Assembly: GCF_009796745.1 (NCBI RefSeq)
Contig: NZ_CP047024.1
Coordinates: forward strand, 2,108,001 to 2,172,000
Length of the DNA: 64,000 nt
From: Paraglaciecola sp. L1A13
Lineage (GTDB): Bacteria; Pseudomonadota; Gammaproteobacteria; Enterobacterales; Alteromonadaceae
Direction: 5' to 3'
Part shown: piece by piece, positions 5,788-38,128 of the stretch
Position numbering within the stretch: position 1 is the first letter of the stretch
How the letters are laid out: the number at the start of each line of letters is the position of its first letter
Program-made: the position numbers and the translations under genes
The notes under the pieces: model-generated
Seen by the model: the letters and a program-made list of their open reading frames with translations, nothing else
Told to the model about the DNA's origin: nothing
The model's database searches: none

Positions 5788-6036
5788 TCAGCACACGTCC
5801 ATCGGGCTTATCGCGCCAGATTTATGCTTACCCAACACGTAGGTATAACTCTGAGTGGTTTTTATATCATAATGCCCCAATAATTCTTGCACTACTCTGA
5901 CGTCAAGCCCTCTTTAAATCAATCACGTTGCGAAACTATGGCGAAAGGTGTGTGATATAACCCGCTTCAAAACGCTAGCTTCGCCAACTGCCTTTTTTAA
6001 CGCCTTACGGAACGCTGTTTGGTGAAGGTGATGACG
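5788..6036 (-). pseudogene. intI: integron integrase (intI) 3' remnant with two in-frame stops
   Basis: Translated on the minus strand in a single frame, this gives the C-terminal catalytic part of an integron-type tyrosine recombinase: HHLHQTAFRKALKKAVGEA, then ISHTFRHSFAT, then RGLDVRVVQELLGH, then TTQSYTYVL and a terminal KSGAISPMDV. These carry the conserved HxxR, the second His (LLGH) and the nucleophilic Tyr. Two stop codons break the frame: TGA at 5925-5923 and TAA at 5916-5914, between SFAT and RGLDV, where a working integrase reads HLIERG or similar. The N-terminal two thirds are missing; the frame is lost at about 6040, where IS110-type sequence begins. No frameshift is needed, so decay is by point mutation plus truncation. 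It points left, the orientation expected if its cassettes lay to its right. Confidence 0.85.
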
Positions 6037-6040
6037 GCAT

Positions 6041-6185
6041 AACAATTAAATATGATGTCAATCATTGAATTTTAGCCATATTCGTATCCCACATAACACC
6101 GTCTCTTACCATTGAGTTTAAGATAACAATCATCTTTCTGTTAGACGTAACAATAGCCACTTTCTCGATTGGTAGGGAGTAGTCA
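6041..6185 (-). mobile_element. IS110-family transposase 3' end, degraded remnant
   Basis: On the minus strand a short frame reads KVAIVTSNRKMIVILNSMVRDGVMW and stops by 6062, matching the end of the IS110-type fragment at 37.8-38.1 kb ([25 protein letters not shown]). The non-coding stretch beyond the stop also aligns without gaps with the right-hand copy, down to a shared TAACAA at 6040 and 37812. Just upstream of the frame the sequence AATCGAGAAAGTGG equals the NRESG segment of the other copy, which lies about 45 codons earlier there; the two are joined at a repeated AAAGTGG, so an internal deletion by microhomology is likely. Non-functional. Confidence 0.7.
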
Positions 6186-30851: not shown

Positions 30852-30952
30852 TGAGTAAAGGATATTATTTTAAAAGCATAAATTTGGACACGATTTAAAC
30901 TGCGCTTTCAATGGACTGTGTCATGGATACAGATACTAAAGAGGGATTTTCT

Positions 30953-31948
30953 ATGGAGTTTCATAGCAGTTTAAGATTGGCTATATGTTTAATTAGTGTT
31001 TCAAGCATGGTTAAGGCGGAAGTGGTTGGACTGACAGATGGTCTATTTAGAGTTGACGAGTCGGGAGCGGCTACATACACGATACCCATATTAACGCCTG
31101 CTGGTAGAGCAGGGGTAACGCCAACCATTGCATTGTCTTATTCCAGTAATAATATGTCCGAAGGACCGCTCGGTGTGGGTTGGTCAGTTAATGGCATGTC
31201 ATCTATTACTCGCTGTCCTTCCACACCTATTTATGACAACAAAATCCAAGCAGTAAAATACAATAAACAGGATAAAATTTGTCTTGATGGACGGCGGCTC
31301 ATTCTTAGGTCTGGTACCTATTTGACCCCAAACAGTACTTATCGTTTTGCGGTGGATGATTTTAGTAAAGTTATTGCGCGAGGTGGCTCGAGCACAAATG
31401 GTCCTAAGTATTTTGAGGTTCATAATAAAGCCGGAGAAGTTCACTATTATGGTGACTCTGACCCAATCAATTCGATGTTTAATAACCACAATGATGCATT
31501 TATTGAGCCTGGAGGATTTCCCTCAGGTCTAAAAGCTAAAACCTGGATGTTGAAGGTTGTCAAAGATATAAAAAGTAATTTCATTCTTTATAATTACTCA
31601 AAGAATACGTCCAAAGGCTCTGTTTACCTCAACAATATACAATATTCAGGCAATATGGCGCGGAGTAAGCAACCGTTTGCAAAGATTCAGTTTGTTTACC
31701 GCACCTATGATAAGGGTTTTAAAGGTTATTATGCTGGCGGACATACGTTTCATGACCAAATTCTTGAGCGCGTAGATACATCAATCGACAATGATCTTCA
31801 TCGATCCTACTTCCTGCAATACGAGGAGTCTGACGTGATTGAAGAACGTACATTGCTTAAGTCTATTCAGGAATGTCCGGATAACGATAGCGTTATGAAT
31901 AATTGCCGTTATCCCCAGAGCTATATTTTCATGGGGAAACCCATTTAA
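30953..31948 (+). pseudogene. truncated SpvB / Tc-toxin (TcdB N-terminal)-like gene
   Basis: The start chosen is ATG 30953, with AGAGGGA upstream, giving a signal peptide (SSLRLAICLISVSSMVKA). The rest is the N-terminal module of SpvB/TcdB/RHS-type secreted toxins: FRVDESGAATYTIPILTPAGRAGVTPTIALSYSS and GPLGVGWSVNGMSSITRCP, then DGRRLIL and GPKYFEVHNKAGEVHYYGDSDP. Full-length family members run on for more than a thousand residues into FG-GAP and RHS repeats and a toxic tip; here the frame stops after QSYIFMGKPI at 331 residues and no continuation was recognised downstream in any frame. Likely a broken 5' fragment. It could alternatively be a short secreted relative, but such a short form is not usual. 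Confidence 0.65.
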
Positions 31949-32508: not shown

Positions 32509-32703
32509 ATTGGCCGCCTTTAGTTTTTTCAATTCTTTGAGGTTTTGATCCCTTAGTAGTGAGAAATACTCAGTAAAATCATAGGGTAAATGCTGATAAT
32601 GACGAGAATTAAAATCAATTCGAGAAGTTACATATGCGGCATTCTCGATAATAAGCGTTATGTGTAAATGGAAGTTAGGTGAATGAATTCTAGTTTTGAC
32701 CAA
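32503..32703 (-). pseudogene. minus-strand ORF fragment ending in a cassette core site
   Basis: A 66-codon frame whose C-terminal half looks protein-like (DFNSRHYQHLPYDFTEYFSLLRD and a charged Lys/Leu-rich tail), ending in TAA within the core site at 32502. Its upstream part runs across a second core (32657) and into the next cassette, so it is probably the surviving 3' end of a gene in a cassette inserted or recombined in the opposite direction. No family is recognised and the start is not meaningful. Confidence 0.3.
32657..32663 (+). other. cassette boundary core (GTTATGT)
   Basis: AAGCGTTATGT marks the start of the next cassette, identical to the core at 32502. The stretch before it has a short stem (CGAGAA/TTCTCG) but no recognisable opposite core, so the preceding attC is incomplete. 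Confidence 0.45.
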
Positions 32704-33129
32704 TATATTTCTAATCTAAATTCAAATAAGGATATTTATCCACATGAATTATTTGAATTCGCTTCAAATAGTGAGCGATATGAATTAAACCACCCTCAAT
32801 CTCTTCATGATTCGTGGGTAACATCGATTACTATCGCTGAAAATAGAAATAAAATCCGCCCATTTGAACCATCATTATCTATTGTTTTAAATTTACTCGG
32901 TCAGCAACATGATCGTGATATTGTACTTAACTATTTTAATGTTAAGTCATATGAAATCTTGGGTTCTGAAAACCCATTTAATTATGGTGACACATTTCAT
33001 GGTGATGTATTAACACATGAAATATCTATTGTTGACGGTTCATTCCAACATGTTTTAGAACTTCGTTCAGGCTCTACTTTTAAAGTTATCTTTAGTGAAT
33101 TCAGCTGTTTGGAGCAAGTTTACACATAA
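32683..33129 (+). CDS. integron cassette gene, immunity-like protein of unknown function
   Basis: A 148-residue cytoplasmic protein. The core LHDSWVTSITIAENRN...EPSLSIVLNLLGQQHDRDIVLNYFNVKSYEI and HEISIVDGSFQHVLELRSGSTFKVIFSEFSC is the kind of small beta-rich fold seen in contact-inhibition and polymorphic-toxin immunity proteins, but no family can be named. The ATG lies 26 bases after the cassette core, with AGG upstream, and its TAA is inside the attC site that follows, a classic cassette arrangement. Function is unknown. Confidence 0.7.
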   Translation: MNSSFDQYISNLNSNKDIYPHELFEFASNSERYELNHPQSLHDSWVTSITIAENRNKIRPFEPSLSIVLNLLGQQHDRDIVLNYFNVKSYEILGSENPFNYGDTFHGDVLTHEISIVDGSFQHVLELRSGSTFKVIFSEFSCLEQVYT

Positions 33130-33219
33130 CAAGAAAATCAACAGGACTAAAAACAGCTGGTTTTGCTCCTGCGTCGCTATTTTACCAGCAATTTTTAGCC
33201 CGTTATTTGGGCGTTAAGT
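33124..33219 (+). repeat. attC site 1
   Basis: A 96-base integron recombination site. The left core is ACATAAC (overlapping the TAA of the preceding gene) and the right core is GTTAAGT, a full match to GTTRRRY. Inside, CTAAAAACAGCTGG pairs with CCAGCAATTTTTAG, and the central TTTGCTCCTGCGTCGCTA is shared nearly base for base with the attC at 37403. Such homogeneous attC sites are typical of chromosomal integron arrays. Confidence 0.9.
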
Positions 33220-33252
33220 AGCTATACGGAGTATCAGGCTATCCAACACGAA

Positions 33253-33837
33253 ATGTTTAAATGGATGATGGAAAATAACCTTAATTGGTCTGCTATTTTT
33301 CACAATCACATTGATGTAATTTTAAAAGAAAAGGTCAAAGAGATTCCCGAGATAGAAACTTTATCTGATAAAGATAAGGTTTATTGGAAGAATATCTATG
33401 AAAACAACTTTCCTAAGCAATTACGGAATACAACCTTTCTAATGATGTTTGGACATTTTGAGGAAATGCTTTATCTCCTATGGAAACAATACAACCCTTC
33501 AAACATTGAATTGGACAAAAAAGGTTTTGGAATTACAAAATTCAAAACTTTTATTAAAACAACACTGAAAACAGACATCGGGCAGCATCATGCATATCAA
33601 CAAATATCTGATGCGCAAAAAATTAGAAACTCTTTGCTTCATATTGCGGGGCGAGTGTCGCTGTCAAAGGATACTCAAGCATTAAACGAGTTAATTGCCC
33701 GAAAGCCTGAAATGTATAGTATCCATCTAGATAGAGTGCAATTAAGTTATGATGGCGTCTTAAATTTTCAAAAAGCAGTTCGAAGTATCACTGAAGAGCT
33801 ACTTAACAAGGCGCTGGTGGATCCCCTCATAGAATAG
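33253..33837 (+). CDS. HEPN-like protein, C-terminus overwritten by an IS end
   Basis: A largely helical 194-residue protein. The stretch AQKIRNSLLHIAGR contains R125-N-S-L-L-H130, the Rx4H motif with a polar residue after the Arg that is the RNase signature of HEPN toxins. The N-terminal half (YENNFPKQLRNTTFLMMFGHFEEMLYLLW) fits the preceding helices of the fold. The last eight codons (LVDPLIE and stop) are read from the IS10-like inverted repeat; without it the frame would run from NKA into leucine and TAG, so only two or three residues differ in effect. Start ATG at 33253 lies 34 bases after attC 1, though a second Met (at 33265 or 33268) is equally good. Likely a cassette-borne toxin or abortive-infection component paired with the ATPase downstream. 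Confidence 0.65.
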   Translation: MFKWMMENNLNWSAIFHNHIDVILKEKVKEIPEIETLSDKDKVYWKNIYENNFPKQLRNTTFLMMFGHFEEMLYLLWKQYNPSNIELDKKGFGITKFKTFIKTTLKTDIGQHHAYQQISDAQKIRNSLLHIAGRVSLSKDTQALNELIARKPEMYSIHLDRVQLSYDGVLNFQKAVRSITEELLNKALVDPLIE

Positions 33838-35138
33838 GCCTCCCTTCTTTGTGAACCCAGCCAATATAATGTCCAATAGCCCACCTTATTTGAGCTTCAC
33901 TTATCTTGTCATCCGAGGCCCTTTTTCTGACCTCTCTGCCTAATCTTATGATTGATAACACGCGCCGATGGCGAGTGGTATTGGCTTGAAATGCGCGCTC
34001 CCAATGTTGCTGCTGAGCGATGAGGCCGAGCAGTCTTAACAACCATTCAGCAAGCATCGCAATCAGTAGTAATATATCGAATCTTTTGGTGCAGCAACTA
34101 TTGCTGTGGCGCAGTCCCATTCCATATTGTGGACTTTTAATATCGCGGAAGGTTTCCTCTATTTGTATCCGTCTGGCGTATAAAGTGACAAGCTGTTTAG
34201 AATTGAATTTAACGTGTTCCGGCAAGTTGGTAGCGAGTAACCAAGGCTCTTTACTCCCTGCAATATAGCTCTGCTGAGCGGTATGATTTCGGCCTGCTTT
34301 TGAAGAGCGTTTATCTTTGCGATGCTTGGGTTTTGCTCTGTATAAATGAAGATGTGCATGAAGCGGATTTTTGCGTCCTAATTCGCCGCAGCCTAGGTAC
34401 TTAGCCCGAGAATTCGCATCGGGGTAAAACGACTTATTGCTTCGCCAAAGCGCTTGCCCATCACGCTTGAATCCCACATCGCCACGCACGCGGCCCAACC
34501 AGAACCAGCCATGTTTTTCTACTTTACGAAACCAAGGGTTACGATAGCCCGCATCGGTCACAATTAACGGACAACAACCTGGTGGTAAGATACTCGCTAG
34601 CTCTTTTAAAAAGGGATTGTGGCTAACGGGGCAGTTGTATTCAGCGTAAGAAAACACCCGTTCATACAACGTCACAGAACGCCCTTGCACGCTGACCGAT
34701 GCACGTAAGGTTAGGTGGCGGAGCTTCTCCCGTACATCAGACCAATCCACAAGTACAACGGGCATGGGGTTCGCACCGCAGAGCAACCGTGCGTGCCAGC
34801 GATAGATATCCAATCGTTCGTTGTGCAGTTGTCAATTACCGAGCAGTCTGTCGATGCGTTTTATGTTGTGTTTTGGCGCAACAGAGCCTGCAATGTTGCG
34901 GCCTAATTCGGTTAGCGACAGTTGTTGTCCATCCAGTAAAGATTGTGTAGCAACCATAAGAGAGGAAAGACGTTTTGCATGTAGATTGGGGCATTGCTTT
35001 TTAAGCAAATCGTGTAAGATATCAATATCACGCATGGAGTTGTTATCTGGTTGGTTTTTGGCGAAATTTATTAGATCAAATAGCATCATGCGTGTCTATA
35101 TTATTGTTTCCGCTTAATATTATGAGGGGATTCGTTAG
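33814..35138 (-). mobile_element. IS10-like insertion sequence (IS4 family), 1325 bp
   Basis: The element is bounded by CTGGTGGATCCCCTCATAG at the left and the inverse of CTAACGAATCCCCTCATAA at the right, both close to the IS10 outside end. The length is that of IS10. The flanking nine bases are AACAAGGCG on the left and AACGCGGCG on the right, a degenerate 7 of 9 match for the nine-base duplication IS10 makes, so the insertion may be old. Its transposase carries a nonsense codon. It sits exactly between the HEPN-like gene and the ATPase gene. Confidence 0.88.
33827..35035 (-). pseudogene. IS10-like transposase broken by an in-frame TGA
   Basis: From the ATG at 35035 the frame would be 402 codons, the length of the IS10 transposase, starting MRDIDILHD (IS10: MCELDILHD). 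Codon 68 is TGA (plus-strand 34832-34834) in DRLLGN-stop-QLHNERLDIYRW, where the family has Arg, so one CGA to TGA change explains it; no frameshift exists. The rest keeps the DDE set: Asp in VLVDWSDVR, Asp in VTDAGYRNPW, and Glu in the Y(2)R(3)E(6)K signature YARRIQIEETFRDIK. The open frame above 35035 (to 35089) is not needed. Unless the stop is read through, no full transposase is made. Confidence 0.9.
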
Positions 35139-35153
35139 AACGCGGCGTTATAG
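35139..35153 (+). other. right flank of the IS with a cassette-core-like motif
   Basis: AACGCGGCGTTATAG follows the IS directly. GTTATAG resembles a cassette core but, joined to the left flank (CTTAACAAGGCG), it would leave no inner attC stem, so no intact attC separates the HEPN-like gene from the ATPase. The TAG serves as the in-silico stop of the HEPN-like gene after IS removal. Confidence 0.6.
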
Positions 35154-35200
35154 GGCTAGGTGATGAATCTGCCCTCGGTGAATAATTAAAAGGATGAGTT

Positions 35201-37408
35201 ATGGATAACCTTAAAGTACGTTTTGAAAACTGTTACGGAATTTCATCATTAGATGAAACTTTTGATTTATCGAATGTCCGAGGAAAAGCTAAAGCTTACG
35301 CAATCTATGCCCCAAACGGACTGATGAAAACATCCTTTTCTAGAACTTTTGATGACTTATCAAAAGGTAACCAACCTAAAGAAGAACGTTTTAATCGGCA
35401 ATCAACTTGTGTTATTGAAGCTGATAATGTCGAAATTCAGCAAGAACAAATATACGTGCTTAAATCTGAAATAGAAATCAATTCTGACAATGATGCTGTT
35501 ACCAATATCCTTATTAATCAGGAAAGTAAGGCTAGATATGACTCATTGATCTCAAATATCAATAAGTTGAAATCAAAGCTTCAAACTTCTCTTCATAAAC
35601 AGTCCAAATTTAAAAAAGATGATGTCGAAAAAAAACTGATAAATGACTTTCTAACAGATGATTTTGTTAAGGCTCTAGAGTTAGCAAAAGAAATTGTTGT
35701 TGGTGATGATCTAGGTAGCTTTATTTATAATGAAATATTCGACCCAAAAGCTATTTCAATACTTGAAAGTCCTGAATTTTTATCAAAATCCAATGAATTC
35801 AATCAGCGATATCAAGACCTTTTTAATCAAGCGGGTACGATATACACTCGCGGTGTTTTTAACCCTACAAAAGCAGATACGTCTTTTAGTACTTTAAATA
35901 AGCAAGGATACTTTGCTGGTGGACATAAAGTTCATTTACAAGGTGATGATTCTTCGATTGATTACGAAGAATTACAAGAAAAGATGAGAGTTGTACATGA
36001 ATCAATTGACAGTGATGCTGAGCTTAAAAAATTAAGAGGGAATTTAGCTAAAAATGCACAAACTCAAGTATTGATTGAACTCTTGGAGAACATTTCTGCA
36101 ACAGAAGTAGATTTTCTTTTGCATCAAGTAAAACCTGAAAACCAAGCAGAATTCAAACGGAGTTTATGGGCTTTTTATATTCAAAATTGTCCAGATACTG
36201 ACGTATTCCTACAAGCTTTTTCCGCCAATCAGGCTGAGTTACGACAAATTGAATTAGCAGCGGCAACAGAAGCCCCTAACTGGTCTATGGCTATAGATCT
36301 TTTTAATAATCGTTTTGTCGATATGCCATTTACTTTGTCATTATTCAATCAGGCTGATGCTGCCTTAGGAAAAGATAAAGCAAAATTAAAGTTTACGTTT
36401 AAAGATGGTGATGATCTTCTAGATTGTACTAGAAGTGAGATTAAGTCTTTGAGTCAAGGAGAAAAACGAGCACTCTATCTTCTTAATTTTATCTTTGAAG
36501 TCGAAGATAGAAAAAGAAAATCAGCGGAAACTCTTTTTATTATTGACGACGTTGCAGATTCTTTCGACTACAAGAATAAACATGCAATTGTTCAATATCT
36601 TGAAGATATATCAAAAATAGAGTACTTTTCACAATTAATTTTGACTCACAATTTTGATTTCTTTAGAACGTTATCTAATAGCTTTGTACGTTATGAGAGA
36701 TGTCTAATGGCTAGTAGAACGGCTGATGGCATAAAGCTATCAAAAGCAGAAGGCATAAAAAATTATTTTATTGGTAAGTGGAAAGAACATATATCAAGCA
36801 GTGACTTCATTTTGTGTGCAACTGTACCTTTTACAAGAAACCTACTTGAGTACATAAAAGGTGAAAATGATCCAGACTACTTGAAGCTCACCAGTCTACT
36901 GCACTGGAAAGAAGATACAGCCCAAATTACCATTGGGAAATATTATGAAATTTATAATAGATTGTTTGGTACAACGTACGGGACTACCAATACAAATTCA
37001 TTTAAAGAATTACTATTTACTAAAGCTGACGAGATCAAAAGTAGAGATAATCACGATGGACTTAACTTAGAAGATAAAGTCCTTTTATCAATCGCTATTA
37101 GAATGAGATCTGAAATTTTCCTTATCGAGGAAATGCGTAAAATAAAAGAAGACGATACTTATTGGTGTCAATCAAATAATCAATTTGGCGCATTAATAAA
37201 GTCATACGTAAAGGAATTACCAAACAGTAATGCTATCAAAACCCTTGAGAAAGTTAGCATTACCGTTAGCTCAAATATTCACCTAAACTCTTTCATGTAC
37301 GAACCGATTTTAGATTTAACTATTGAACACCTAATCACATTGTATTCGGAAATTTTAGAACTAGAGTCTGCTGTGCCTGTTCCTCAAGAAACTGAGCCAG
37401 CCCTATAA
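35201..37408 (+). CDS. SMC/ABC-type ATPase (RloC/PrrC-like architecture), candidate defence gene
   Basis: A 735-residue cytoplasmic ATPase of the AAA_13/ABC-fold group. It has a Walker A variant YAPNGLMKTS (K43) near the N-terminus, a long helical and partly coiled middle (about 105-400), an ABC signature LSQGEK (S418-K422), Walker B FIIDDVADS (D449, D450) and an H-loop LTHNFDFF (H483). Beyond this ATPase core is a 250-residue helical C-terminal domain with RNLLE (R546, E550) and a later His (H568). That pattern loosely recalls the catalytic residues of anticodon nucleases but is not at their spacing, so a nuclease role is not shown. The gene starts 50 bases after the restored HEPN stop (AAAAGGATG ribosome site) and its TAA lies inside attC 2. 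Probably a phage-defence or toxin-regulating ATPase carried as a cassette. Confidence 0.75.
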   Translation: MDNLKVRFENCYGISSLDETFDLSNVRGKAKAYAIYAPNGLMKTSFSRTFDDLSKGNQPKEERFNRQSTCVIEADNVEIQQEQIYVLKSEIEINSDNDAVTNILINQESKARYDSLISNINKLKSKLQTSLHKQSKFKKDDVEKKLINDFLTDDFVKALELAKEIVVGDDLGSFIYNEIFDPKAISILESPEFLSKSNEFNQRYQDLFNQAGTIYTRGVFNPTKADTSFSTLNKQGYFAGGHKVHLQGDDSSIDYEELQEKMRVVHESIDSDAELKKLRGNLAKNAQTQVLIELLENISATEVDFLLHQVKPENQAEFKRSLWAFYIQNCPDTDVFLQAFSANQAELRQIELAAATEAPNWSMAIDLFNNRFVDMPFTLSLFNQADAALGKDKAKLKFTFKDGDDLLDCTRSEIKSLSQGEKRALYLLNFIFEVEDRKRKSAETLFIIDDVADSFDYKNKHAIVQYLEDISKIEYFSQLILTHNFDFFRTLSNSFVRYERCLMASRTADGIKLSKAEGIKNYFIGKWKEHISSSDFILCATVPFTRNLLEYIKGENDPDYLKLTSLLHWKEDTAQITIGKYYEIYNRLFGTTYGTTNTNSFKELLFTKADEIKSRDNHDGLNLEDKVLLSIAIRMRSEIFLIEEMRKIKEDDTYWCQSNNQFGALIKSYVKELPNSNAIKTLEKVSITVSSNIHLNSFMYEPILDLTIEHLITLYSEILELESAVPVPQETEPAL

Positions 37409-37501
37409 CAAGTCATTTCAGCAGGACAAATAACAGTTGCCTTTGCTCCTGCGTCGCTAATTTTAGCCAACAATTATTTGCCTCTGAATGAGGCGTTAGT
37501 T
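37403..37501 (+). repeat. attC site 2
   Basis: A 99-base site with left core CTATAAC (overlapping the ATPase TAA) and right core GTTAGTT. TAAC...TCATTTCAG pairs with CTGAATGAGGCGTTA, and the centre is the same TTTGCTCCTGCGTCGCTAA.TTTTAGCCA as in attC 1. The two are about 95 bases each and clearly related, which excludes coincidence. Confidence 0.9.
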
Positions 37502-37522
37502 TAATTGGAGTAATACTTAATT

Positions 37523-37804
37523 ATGGATGATGTATCTGAGCAATTTAAACCGATACAGAAACGGTTTTATGTCATCTTGGTATTATCCGTTATATTCTTT
37601 GCGAGTTGCTTTATTCTCCAATATTTTGTTATCGAATTTCTTAATCCTTTTTATGGTGCATTAATTGGAGTATTAATTTTTAATATTGGTATTTGGCTGT
37701 ATTACAGGTGTCCAAAGTGTCATTCTGTACCATTTGCATTAGGCAGTGATGGTGTAGAAATTAGGCCTAAATCCTGCCATAAATGTGGTACCAAGTTCAG
37801 GTAA
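37523..37804 (+). CDS. cassette gene: small membrane protein with C-terminal zinc ribbon
   Basis: A 93-residue protein of unknown role. Two hydrophobic helices (about 15-35 and 42-62; FYVILVLSVIFFASCFILQYF and YGALIGVLIFNIGIWLYY) are followed by a soluble tail with CPKCHSV and CHKCGTKF, two CxxC pairs about 20 residues apart that should bind one zinc. The ATG is 21 bases after the attC 2 core, with TTGGAG upstream. It is followed by TCTAACAAGAG (37810), the beginning of its own attC, cut by IS110-type sequence. Confidence 0.7.
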   Translation: MDDVSEQFKPIQKRFYVILVLSVIFFASCFILQYFVIEFLNPFYGALIGVLIFNIGIWLYYRCPKCHSVPFALGSDGVEIRPKSCHKCGTKFR

Positions 37805-37811
37805 AGTAATC

Positions 37812-38128
<317 letters not shown>

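Follow-up and report, generated by a model that had tools for sequence, protein, structure and literature searches.

PrrC and RloC combine an ABC ATPase with a C-terminal RNase whose triad is R-x3-E-x36-52-H. A linked restriction-modification (R-M) enzyme keeps PrrC silent, and DNA damage is the presumed signal for RloC (PMC2610378, PMC3710099). An RNase candidate of the HEPN type on an integron cassette is represented by the family Vpc_cass2 (PDB 3JRT), to which parts of PMC3710099 and PMC3548836 refer. Anti-phage genes on integron cassettes are already established (PMC12409362, citing Darracq 2025 and Kieffer 2025), and the same source portrays the defence systems of integrons as streamlined to small size. 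Here we analyse a stretch of 64,000 nucleotides from Paraglaciecola sp. L1A13 (contig NZ_CP047024.1, positions 2,108,001 to 2,172,000 of the forward strand), referred to below as the window. In this window, a gene for a HEPN-like protein and a gene for a large ABC/SMC-type ATPase of the PADLOC family PDC-S46 lie next to each other in an integron cassette array, with an IS10-like insertion sequence (IS) between them. PDC denotes a phage defence candidate (PMC11514479).

An initial annotation had read the two genes as one operon within a single cassette that was later split by the IS, and as a toxin-ATPase defence pair. Our analysis leads to a different conclusion: they are almost certainly separate single-gene integron cassettes that became neighbours by chance.

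Cassette boundaries around the IS10-like element

Four integron cassettes, all in one orientation, make up a short array at positions 32657-37815 of the window; they contain an open reading frame (ORF) of 148 amino acids, the HEPN-like ORF, the ATPase and an ORF of 93 amino acids. The features around the IS are listed here, where L030 is a locus of another genome (G948) with a 92% identical ATPase.

33124 to 33219, plus strand: complete attC at the junction of cassette 1 and the HEPN cassette (attC scan)
33213 to 33813, plus strand: preserved part of the HEPN cassette, with its start GTTAAGT at 33213 and the start of its own attC, ACTTAAC, at 33801-33807, followed by AAGGCG up to the IS; ends complementary 7/7
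33253 to 33837, plus strand: HEPN-like ORF of 194 amino acids; residues 1-187 are native, the last seven codons and the stop are supplied by the IS end
33814 to 35138, minus strand: IS10-like element of 1325 bases (NF033591, DDE_Tnp_1; inverted-repeat ends compared by eye)
35139 to 35153, plus strand: right-hand remnant of an attC and the ATPase cassette start GTTATAG (35147-35153), from the alignment with L030, where the identical start follows a complete attC
35147 to 37494, plus strand: ATPase cassette of 2348 bases with a single gene; GTTATAG and CTATAAC complementary 7/7; boundaries as in L030
35201 to 37408, plus strand: ABC/SMC-type ATPase of 735 amino acids, PADLOC PDC-S46 (PDLC05023, 755.7 bits)
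37403 to 37501, plus strand: complete attC of the ATPase cassette (attC scan)

When an integron cassette is circular, its attC is composed of its own end and its own start, and the seven start bases (GTTnnnn) tend to complement the seven end bases (nnnnAAC). In the window, own start and own end agree at seven of seven positions in cassette 1, in the HEPN cassette (GTTAAGT at 33213, ACTTAAC at 33801) and in the ATPase cassette (GTTATAG at 35147, CTATAAC at 37403), and at six of seven in cassette 4. Pairing the HEPN start with the ATPase end, as a one-cassette model demands, yields only 4/7, within the range of 4 to 6 seen for mismatched pairs in this comparison. On its left side, the IS is flanked by the beginning of the HEPN attC, and on its right side by the end of an attC and the start of the ATPase cassette; the IS thus occupies the attC that once separated the two genes. 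The middle portion of this site is missing. The earlier statement that no attC lies between the genes is therefore not upheld.

Other genomes provide intact versions of both cassettes. In L030, the ATPase is preceded by the leader GTTATAGGGCTAGGTGAT, as in the window, and similarity to the window ends at about this point; further upstream lies an unrelated gene, for a reverse transcriptase, followed by a complete attC, and no HEPN gene is present. A HEPN relative of Aliidiomarina shirensis (L002) stands alone in its cassette, preceded by a complete attC and with its final codons lying within its own attC. In a Desulfococcaceae metagenome-assembled genome (L004), a HEPN relative shares the start motif and ends in a coded tail that resembles an attC (6/7), and a second cassette is not evident. 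Several of 21 HEPN relatives end in such attC-like tails. The HEPN relatives in L003 (Porticoccus) and L032 are located outside any evident array.

Genomic neighbourhoods of the two genes

The neighbourhoods of homologues were compared in 34 ATPase loci, all from other records and mostly extending 5-7 kb to either side, with some cut by contig ends, and in 12 HEPN loci, consisting of five strong and seven weak matches (E 2.5e-4 to 2.9e-11). Profile searches detected HEPN relatives in none of the ATPase loci (26 plus 8 more), and the ATPase was absent from all HEPN loci (8 plus 4 short ones, L090-L093, of which only short flanks were available). Own-genome copies and duplicate loci were excluded (L022 and L094 belong to one contig), and the near-duplicates L098 and L099 were counted apart. 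In overlapping samples of 369, 394 and 226 genomes, 16 genomes besides the host contain the ATPase (E thresholds of 1e-30 or 1e-50), and the HEPN gene is present in 10 (E up to 0.001). Both genes are found only in G463, where the HEPN match is weak (2.8e-5) and on another contig. The two families are also of unequal size, with 52 HEPN relatives from profile searching compared with at least 5365 for the ATPase. As far as sampled, the toxin-ATPase pair of the initial annotation is thus not a recurring arrangement.

The ATPase is encoded in 27 of 72,556 plasmid records and in one phage record; plasmids gave no HEPN match, and none was confirmed in viral contigs. Nine plasmid ATPase neighbourhoods viewed by eye revealed no common partner. 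An AbaSI-type restriction endonuclease gene is located just upstream of the ATPase on plasmid L083, and plasmid L082 contains a PIN-domain gene.

Within 5 kb of the ATPase, the families recurring in three of the 34 loci are a type I methylase, a type III methylase and a type III restriction subunit. Two loci each share two further genes of the type III locus (L065/L066), a tyrosine recombinase (L083/L100) or seven genes (L098/L099). This test detects only families common to at least two loci, and families were named by Pfam for a subset only. R-M genes on the same strand and at most 2.5 kb away are present in five of the 34 loci, of type I in L035 and L097 and of type III in L065, L066 and L096. 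L100 was excluded from this count, because its type I methylase fragment is about 5 kb off and on the opposite strand. In L035 (6824-16833), the PDC-S46 ATPase ends a type I R-M operon and overlaps hsdS by four bases. The window copy has no adjoining R-M genes.

The reverse-transcriptase gene upstream of the ATPase cassette in L030 (7427-8947) is assigned by PADLOC to the defence reverse transcriptase family Drt9 (720.8 bits) and is followed by a complete attC; DRT9 thus appears as an integron cassette in this genome. A literature search for integron plus DRT9 found no paper. The present analysis adds this adjacency, and also a long cassette of 2348 bases that encodes a complete ATPase from a family of defence candidates.

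The HEPN-like protein

The HEPN-like ORF with R125-N-x3-H130 was confirmed. The sequence R125-N-S-L-L-H130 corresponds to the HEPN motif Rx4-6H, and R125, N126, H130, E70 and E71 are invariant across 50 aligned HEPN sequences. Profile searches collected 52 relatives; alignment A1 contains 17 of 21 relatives (four fragments left out) and alignment A4 contains 46 of 52 (six fragments left out). The AlphaFold2 model (mean predicted local distance difference test score 89.4) ranks HEPN structures top in a structure search. In agreement with the four-helix fold expected earlier, it displays the HEPN arrangement of four main helices, an insert between helices 2 and 3, and a motif that closes helix 3, in line with the description of the fold in PMC3710099. 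The folded region is nearly all native, with residue 187 as the last native position and the last helix ending at 189.

The invariant RNx3H motif and the HEPN-like model make the protein a good candidate for an RNase, and we consider this activity quite probable. It would then be a small metal-independent enzyme that halts growth by RNA cutting. Close relatives of 97% and 93% identity extend past the NKAL of the window, with NKALESDS and NKALKSDS, respectively. The C-terminus proposed by the initial annotation, which was obtained by joining the IS flanks to give NKAL and a TAG stop, presumes a perfect duplication, whereas the flanks match at 7 of 9 positions, and the relatives are longer at this end.

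A comparison of the HEPN profiles with PDB sequences found no known family; the best match, ELG1 at E 0.03, is probably due to chance. 3JRT did not match profiles A1 and A4 at E up to 10, and its absence from the 50 structure matches listed excludes nothing. PADLOC RTasHEPN (E 0.0049) was too weak a match and was not used. The HEPN cassette family could not be linked to a named one and is in this sense an addition of this work. The earlier remark that no family could be named is superseded by the assignment of the ATPase to PDC-S46. In L093 (genome G772), two weak HEPN relatives lie close together in one locus.

The ATPase and its C-terminal region

The match to PDC-S46 covers the full length of the ATPase (residues 1-721 on positions 1-718 of the 719-position model), and the same is true for all sequences of alignment A2, a hand-picked set of 62 that includes the window copy. 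The previously noted Walker A lysine K43, signature S418-K422 and H-loop H483 are present at 35201-37408. Across the alignment the Walker A, signature, Walker B and H-loop motifs are conserved; K43, S418 and H483 are invariant (62/62), and K422 is not. SMC_N matches occur in 59/62 sequences and RecF matches in 41/62, and a nuclease family was detected in none. Among PDB sequences, none matched with an E of 1 or below. With a threshold of E 0.001, the ATPase has at least 5365 matches among database proteins, some of which are perhaps related via the ATPase part only. No paper came up in a full-text search for the term PDC-S46. We consider an anti-phage function of the protein likely.

The C-terminal 240 residues are rich in invariant polar positions, including R634, E638, N692, H694, N696, E701 and D705. 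Within them, R634-x3-E638-x55-H694 resembles the PrrC/RloC triad, and R-x3-E-x52-55-H is found in all 62 sequences, with E-to-H spacings of 55 (42 sequences), 53 (17), 54 (2) and 52 (1). When near-invariant polar residues were placed at random, R-x3-E-x36-55-H arose with a chance of 0.0035 and the published spacing with 0.0027, in a test that was designed after the motif had been seen.

Several findings weigh against a nuclease reading. The spacing of 53-55 in 61/62 sequences is just outside the published range of 36-52. The same region contains a second R-x3-E, formed by the invariant R546 and the near-invariant E550, together with an invariant H568. The canonical HEPN motif Rx4-6H was not found near H694 or H568, and profile comparison of the C-terminus with the HEPN family gave nothing. 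The PADLOC PrrC model does not match the window ATPase at E up to 1; it matches a single one of the 62 sequences, and there the ATPase part only. Furthermore, 29 of the 34 ATPase loci show no recurring R-M neighbour. As for the zinc hook of RloC, a CxxC within a coiled-coil insert, the window ATPase has no CxxC; such pairs are present in 10/62 sequences, from residue 536 onward and hence C-terminal to the ATPase motifs. We therefore give a PrrC/RloC-like nuclease at the C-terminus an even chance, and the ATPase, despite the resemblance of its motif to the triad, is not filed as a PrrC/RloC member.

Remaining features of the array

The other two cassettes and one feature inside the IS are as follows.

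32657 to 33212, plus strand: cassette 1, with one ORF of 148 amino acids (32683-33129); start GTTATGT and end ACATAAC complementary 7/7
37495 to 37815, plus strand: cassette 4, the last recognised, with an ORF of 93 amino acids (37523-37804) that has two CxxC pairs; start and end 6/7
35028 to 35098, plus strand: RNA-OUT-like antisense RNA within the IS10-like element (matches the whole of Rfam RF00240 with 38 bits and E 8.4e-5, short of the gathering score, 41)

For the ORF of cassette 1, Pfam, PADLOC and NCBIfam gave nothing at E up to 1, and PADLOC gives no match for the ORF of cassette 4. Beside the array, a short ORF on the minus strand (37837-38103) resembles, by eye, the tail of an IS110-type transposase; upstream of the array, an apparently truncated ORF of 345 amino acids (30911-31948) has no PADLOC match.

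No integrase gene adjoins the array. The intact integron integrase of the host genome (TIGR02249, 389.6 bits) is about 414 kb away, near an exact copy of the attC core, and a broken second integrase lies about 30 kb from the intact one. An integron integrase remnant with stops is found at 5797-6042 (minus strand; 104.7 bits), about 27 kb from the array. A simple attC scan recovered two sites in the array and one nested alternative; it misses the sites by the L002 HEPN gene and the L030 ATPase, which were read by eye, and its silence elsewhere is thus meaningless. The attC-core pattern with up to two mismatches gave 17 sites versus 10 in a reversed control, hence only the six sites with 0-1 mismatch were used. 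A pattern search of the host genome for HEPN's own type of attC gave no match.

The IS10-like insertion and the mobile-cassette setting proposed in the initial annotation were borne out by the transposase match and by the attC sites and matching ends. The transposase matches the IS4-family model NF033591 (336.9 bits, cut-off 152) and is broken into two ORFs on the minus strand (34832-35089 and 33827-34813), and the element is probably inactive. It is the sole full-length copy found in the genome, besides two partial copies.

Alternative explanations

The account that we favour, and regard as probable overall, comprises two unrelated single-gene cassettes, each acting alone, with a putatively nuclease-bearing ATPase. 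The two cassettes adjoin in an array of four and the IS sits in the attC between them; neither gene would need the other. A very improbable alternative is that a HEPN toxin and an ATPase that regulates its RNase activity formed a two-gene operon in one cassette, which was split later by the IS. The genes are indeed adjacent and on the same strand, with no complete attC left between them, and the 9-base flanks of the IS (33805-33813 and 35139-35147) agree at 7/9 positions, as a decayed target duplication would; the joined flanks leave little room for an attC. This agreement would also fit a duplication in a junction that was already without most of its attC, which counts against the favoured account, as does the L002 HEPN cassette with own ends agreeing only 5/7. 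For each gene, cassette start and end nevertheless match one another, while across the two genes they do not, the intact 92% identical ATPase cassette begins at the same base after the attC of another cassette, a HEPN relative forms a cassette of its own, and the neighbourhood is not repeated in the sampled loci. On these grounds, the one-cassette operon was rejected.

Two further explanations concern what the genes do. The ATPase might be an SMC/RecF-kind sensor of DNA ends or replication stress that has no nuclease and acts via host proteins or linked R-M enzymes. The SMC_N and RecF matches, the lack of any nuclease family and the restriction of the PrrC model to the ATPase part agree with this idea, which we still hold to be unlikely, since the invariant polar residues of the C-terminal region look like an active site and most loci offer no recurring R-M gene as a possible effector. 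Somewhat less doubtful is the possibility that the cassettes are silent cargo, far from integrase and promoter and idle in this strain, with the HEPN tail overwritten by the IS. The distant integrase and the replaced HEPN end speak for it; on the other hand, both ORFs are open, that of HEPN through nearly the whole fold, and the ATPase keeps the residues that are invariant in its family, which suggests that decay is recent or that selection persists. Returning to two independently acting cassettes, the ATPase would be a stand-alone defence protein, whose SMC/ABC head may respond to a sign of infection, possibly failing restriction or DNA ends, and may switch on a C-terminal RNase around R634, E638 and H694 that would cut tRNA as PrrC and RloC do. 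As judged from its sequence, it is likely a self-contained shut-down protein that unites an ATPase with a putative RNase.

Comparison with known systems

This locus illustrates that an IS within an attC can make independent cassettes look like an operon, a tempting false pair that is corrected here. A simple test for such cases is that each cassette start should match its own attC end. The analysis also places the widespread defence candidate PDC-S46 in two settings, R-M loci and integron arrays. It is possible, although we lean slightly against it, that PDC-S46 proteins form one more branch of the ABC-ATPase enzymes resembling anticodon nucleases, found within R-M operons of types I and III and also, free of R-M genes, as unusually long single-gene cassettes of integrons. 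On this reading, a whole suicide enzyme that cuts tRNA would be carried by integrons in a single movable unit. If the C-terminal nuclease proves true, one cassette would give integrons an anticodon-nuclease-like defence.

The IS resembles the IS10/IS4 family in transposase family, end repeats and RNA-OUT-like antisense RNA, but differs by its broken transposase ORF and by 7/9 flanks instead of a perfect 9-base duplication. The HEPN-like protein shares with Vpc_cass2 (3JRT) the cassette-borne nature of a HEPN RNase candidate and an extra helix before helix 4, but gave no sequence match to it at E up to 10. In contrast to the HEPN-MNT systems (MntA-HepT, 6M6U; di-AMPylated HEPN toxin, 7AE6), it has no recognised nucleotidyltransferase antitoxin alongside: the upstream neighbour is without a family match and in its own cassette, and the downstream neighbour is the IS.

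The ATPase matches the single-gene candidate PDC-S46 over its full length and differs from it by travelling as an integron cassette. As in described anti-phage integron cassettes, a defence gene would be cassette-borne, although 2348 bases is long for such a cassette. The closest known systems for the ATPase are PrrC, RloC and other ABC-HEPN fusions (APECO1_4465). It resembles PrrC and RloC in the N-terminal ABC ATPase, the C-terminal R-x3-E...H pattern and the location of some kin beside type I or type III R-M genes, and it differs from them by the absence of a zinc hook, the longer E-to-H spacing and the lack of R-M genes at the window copy.

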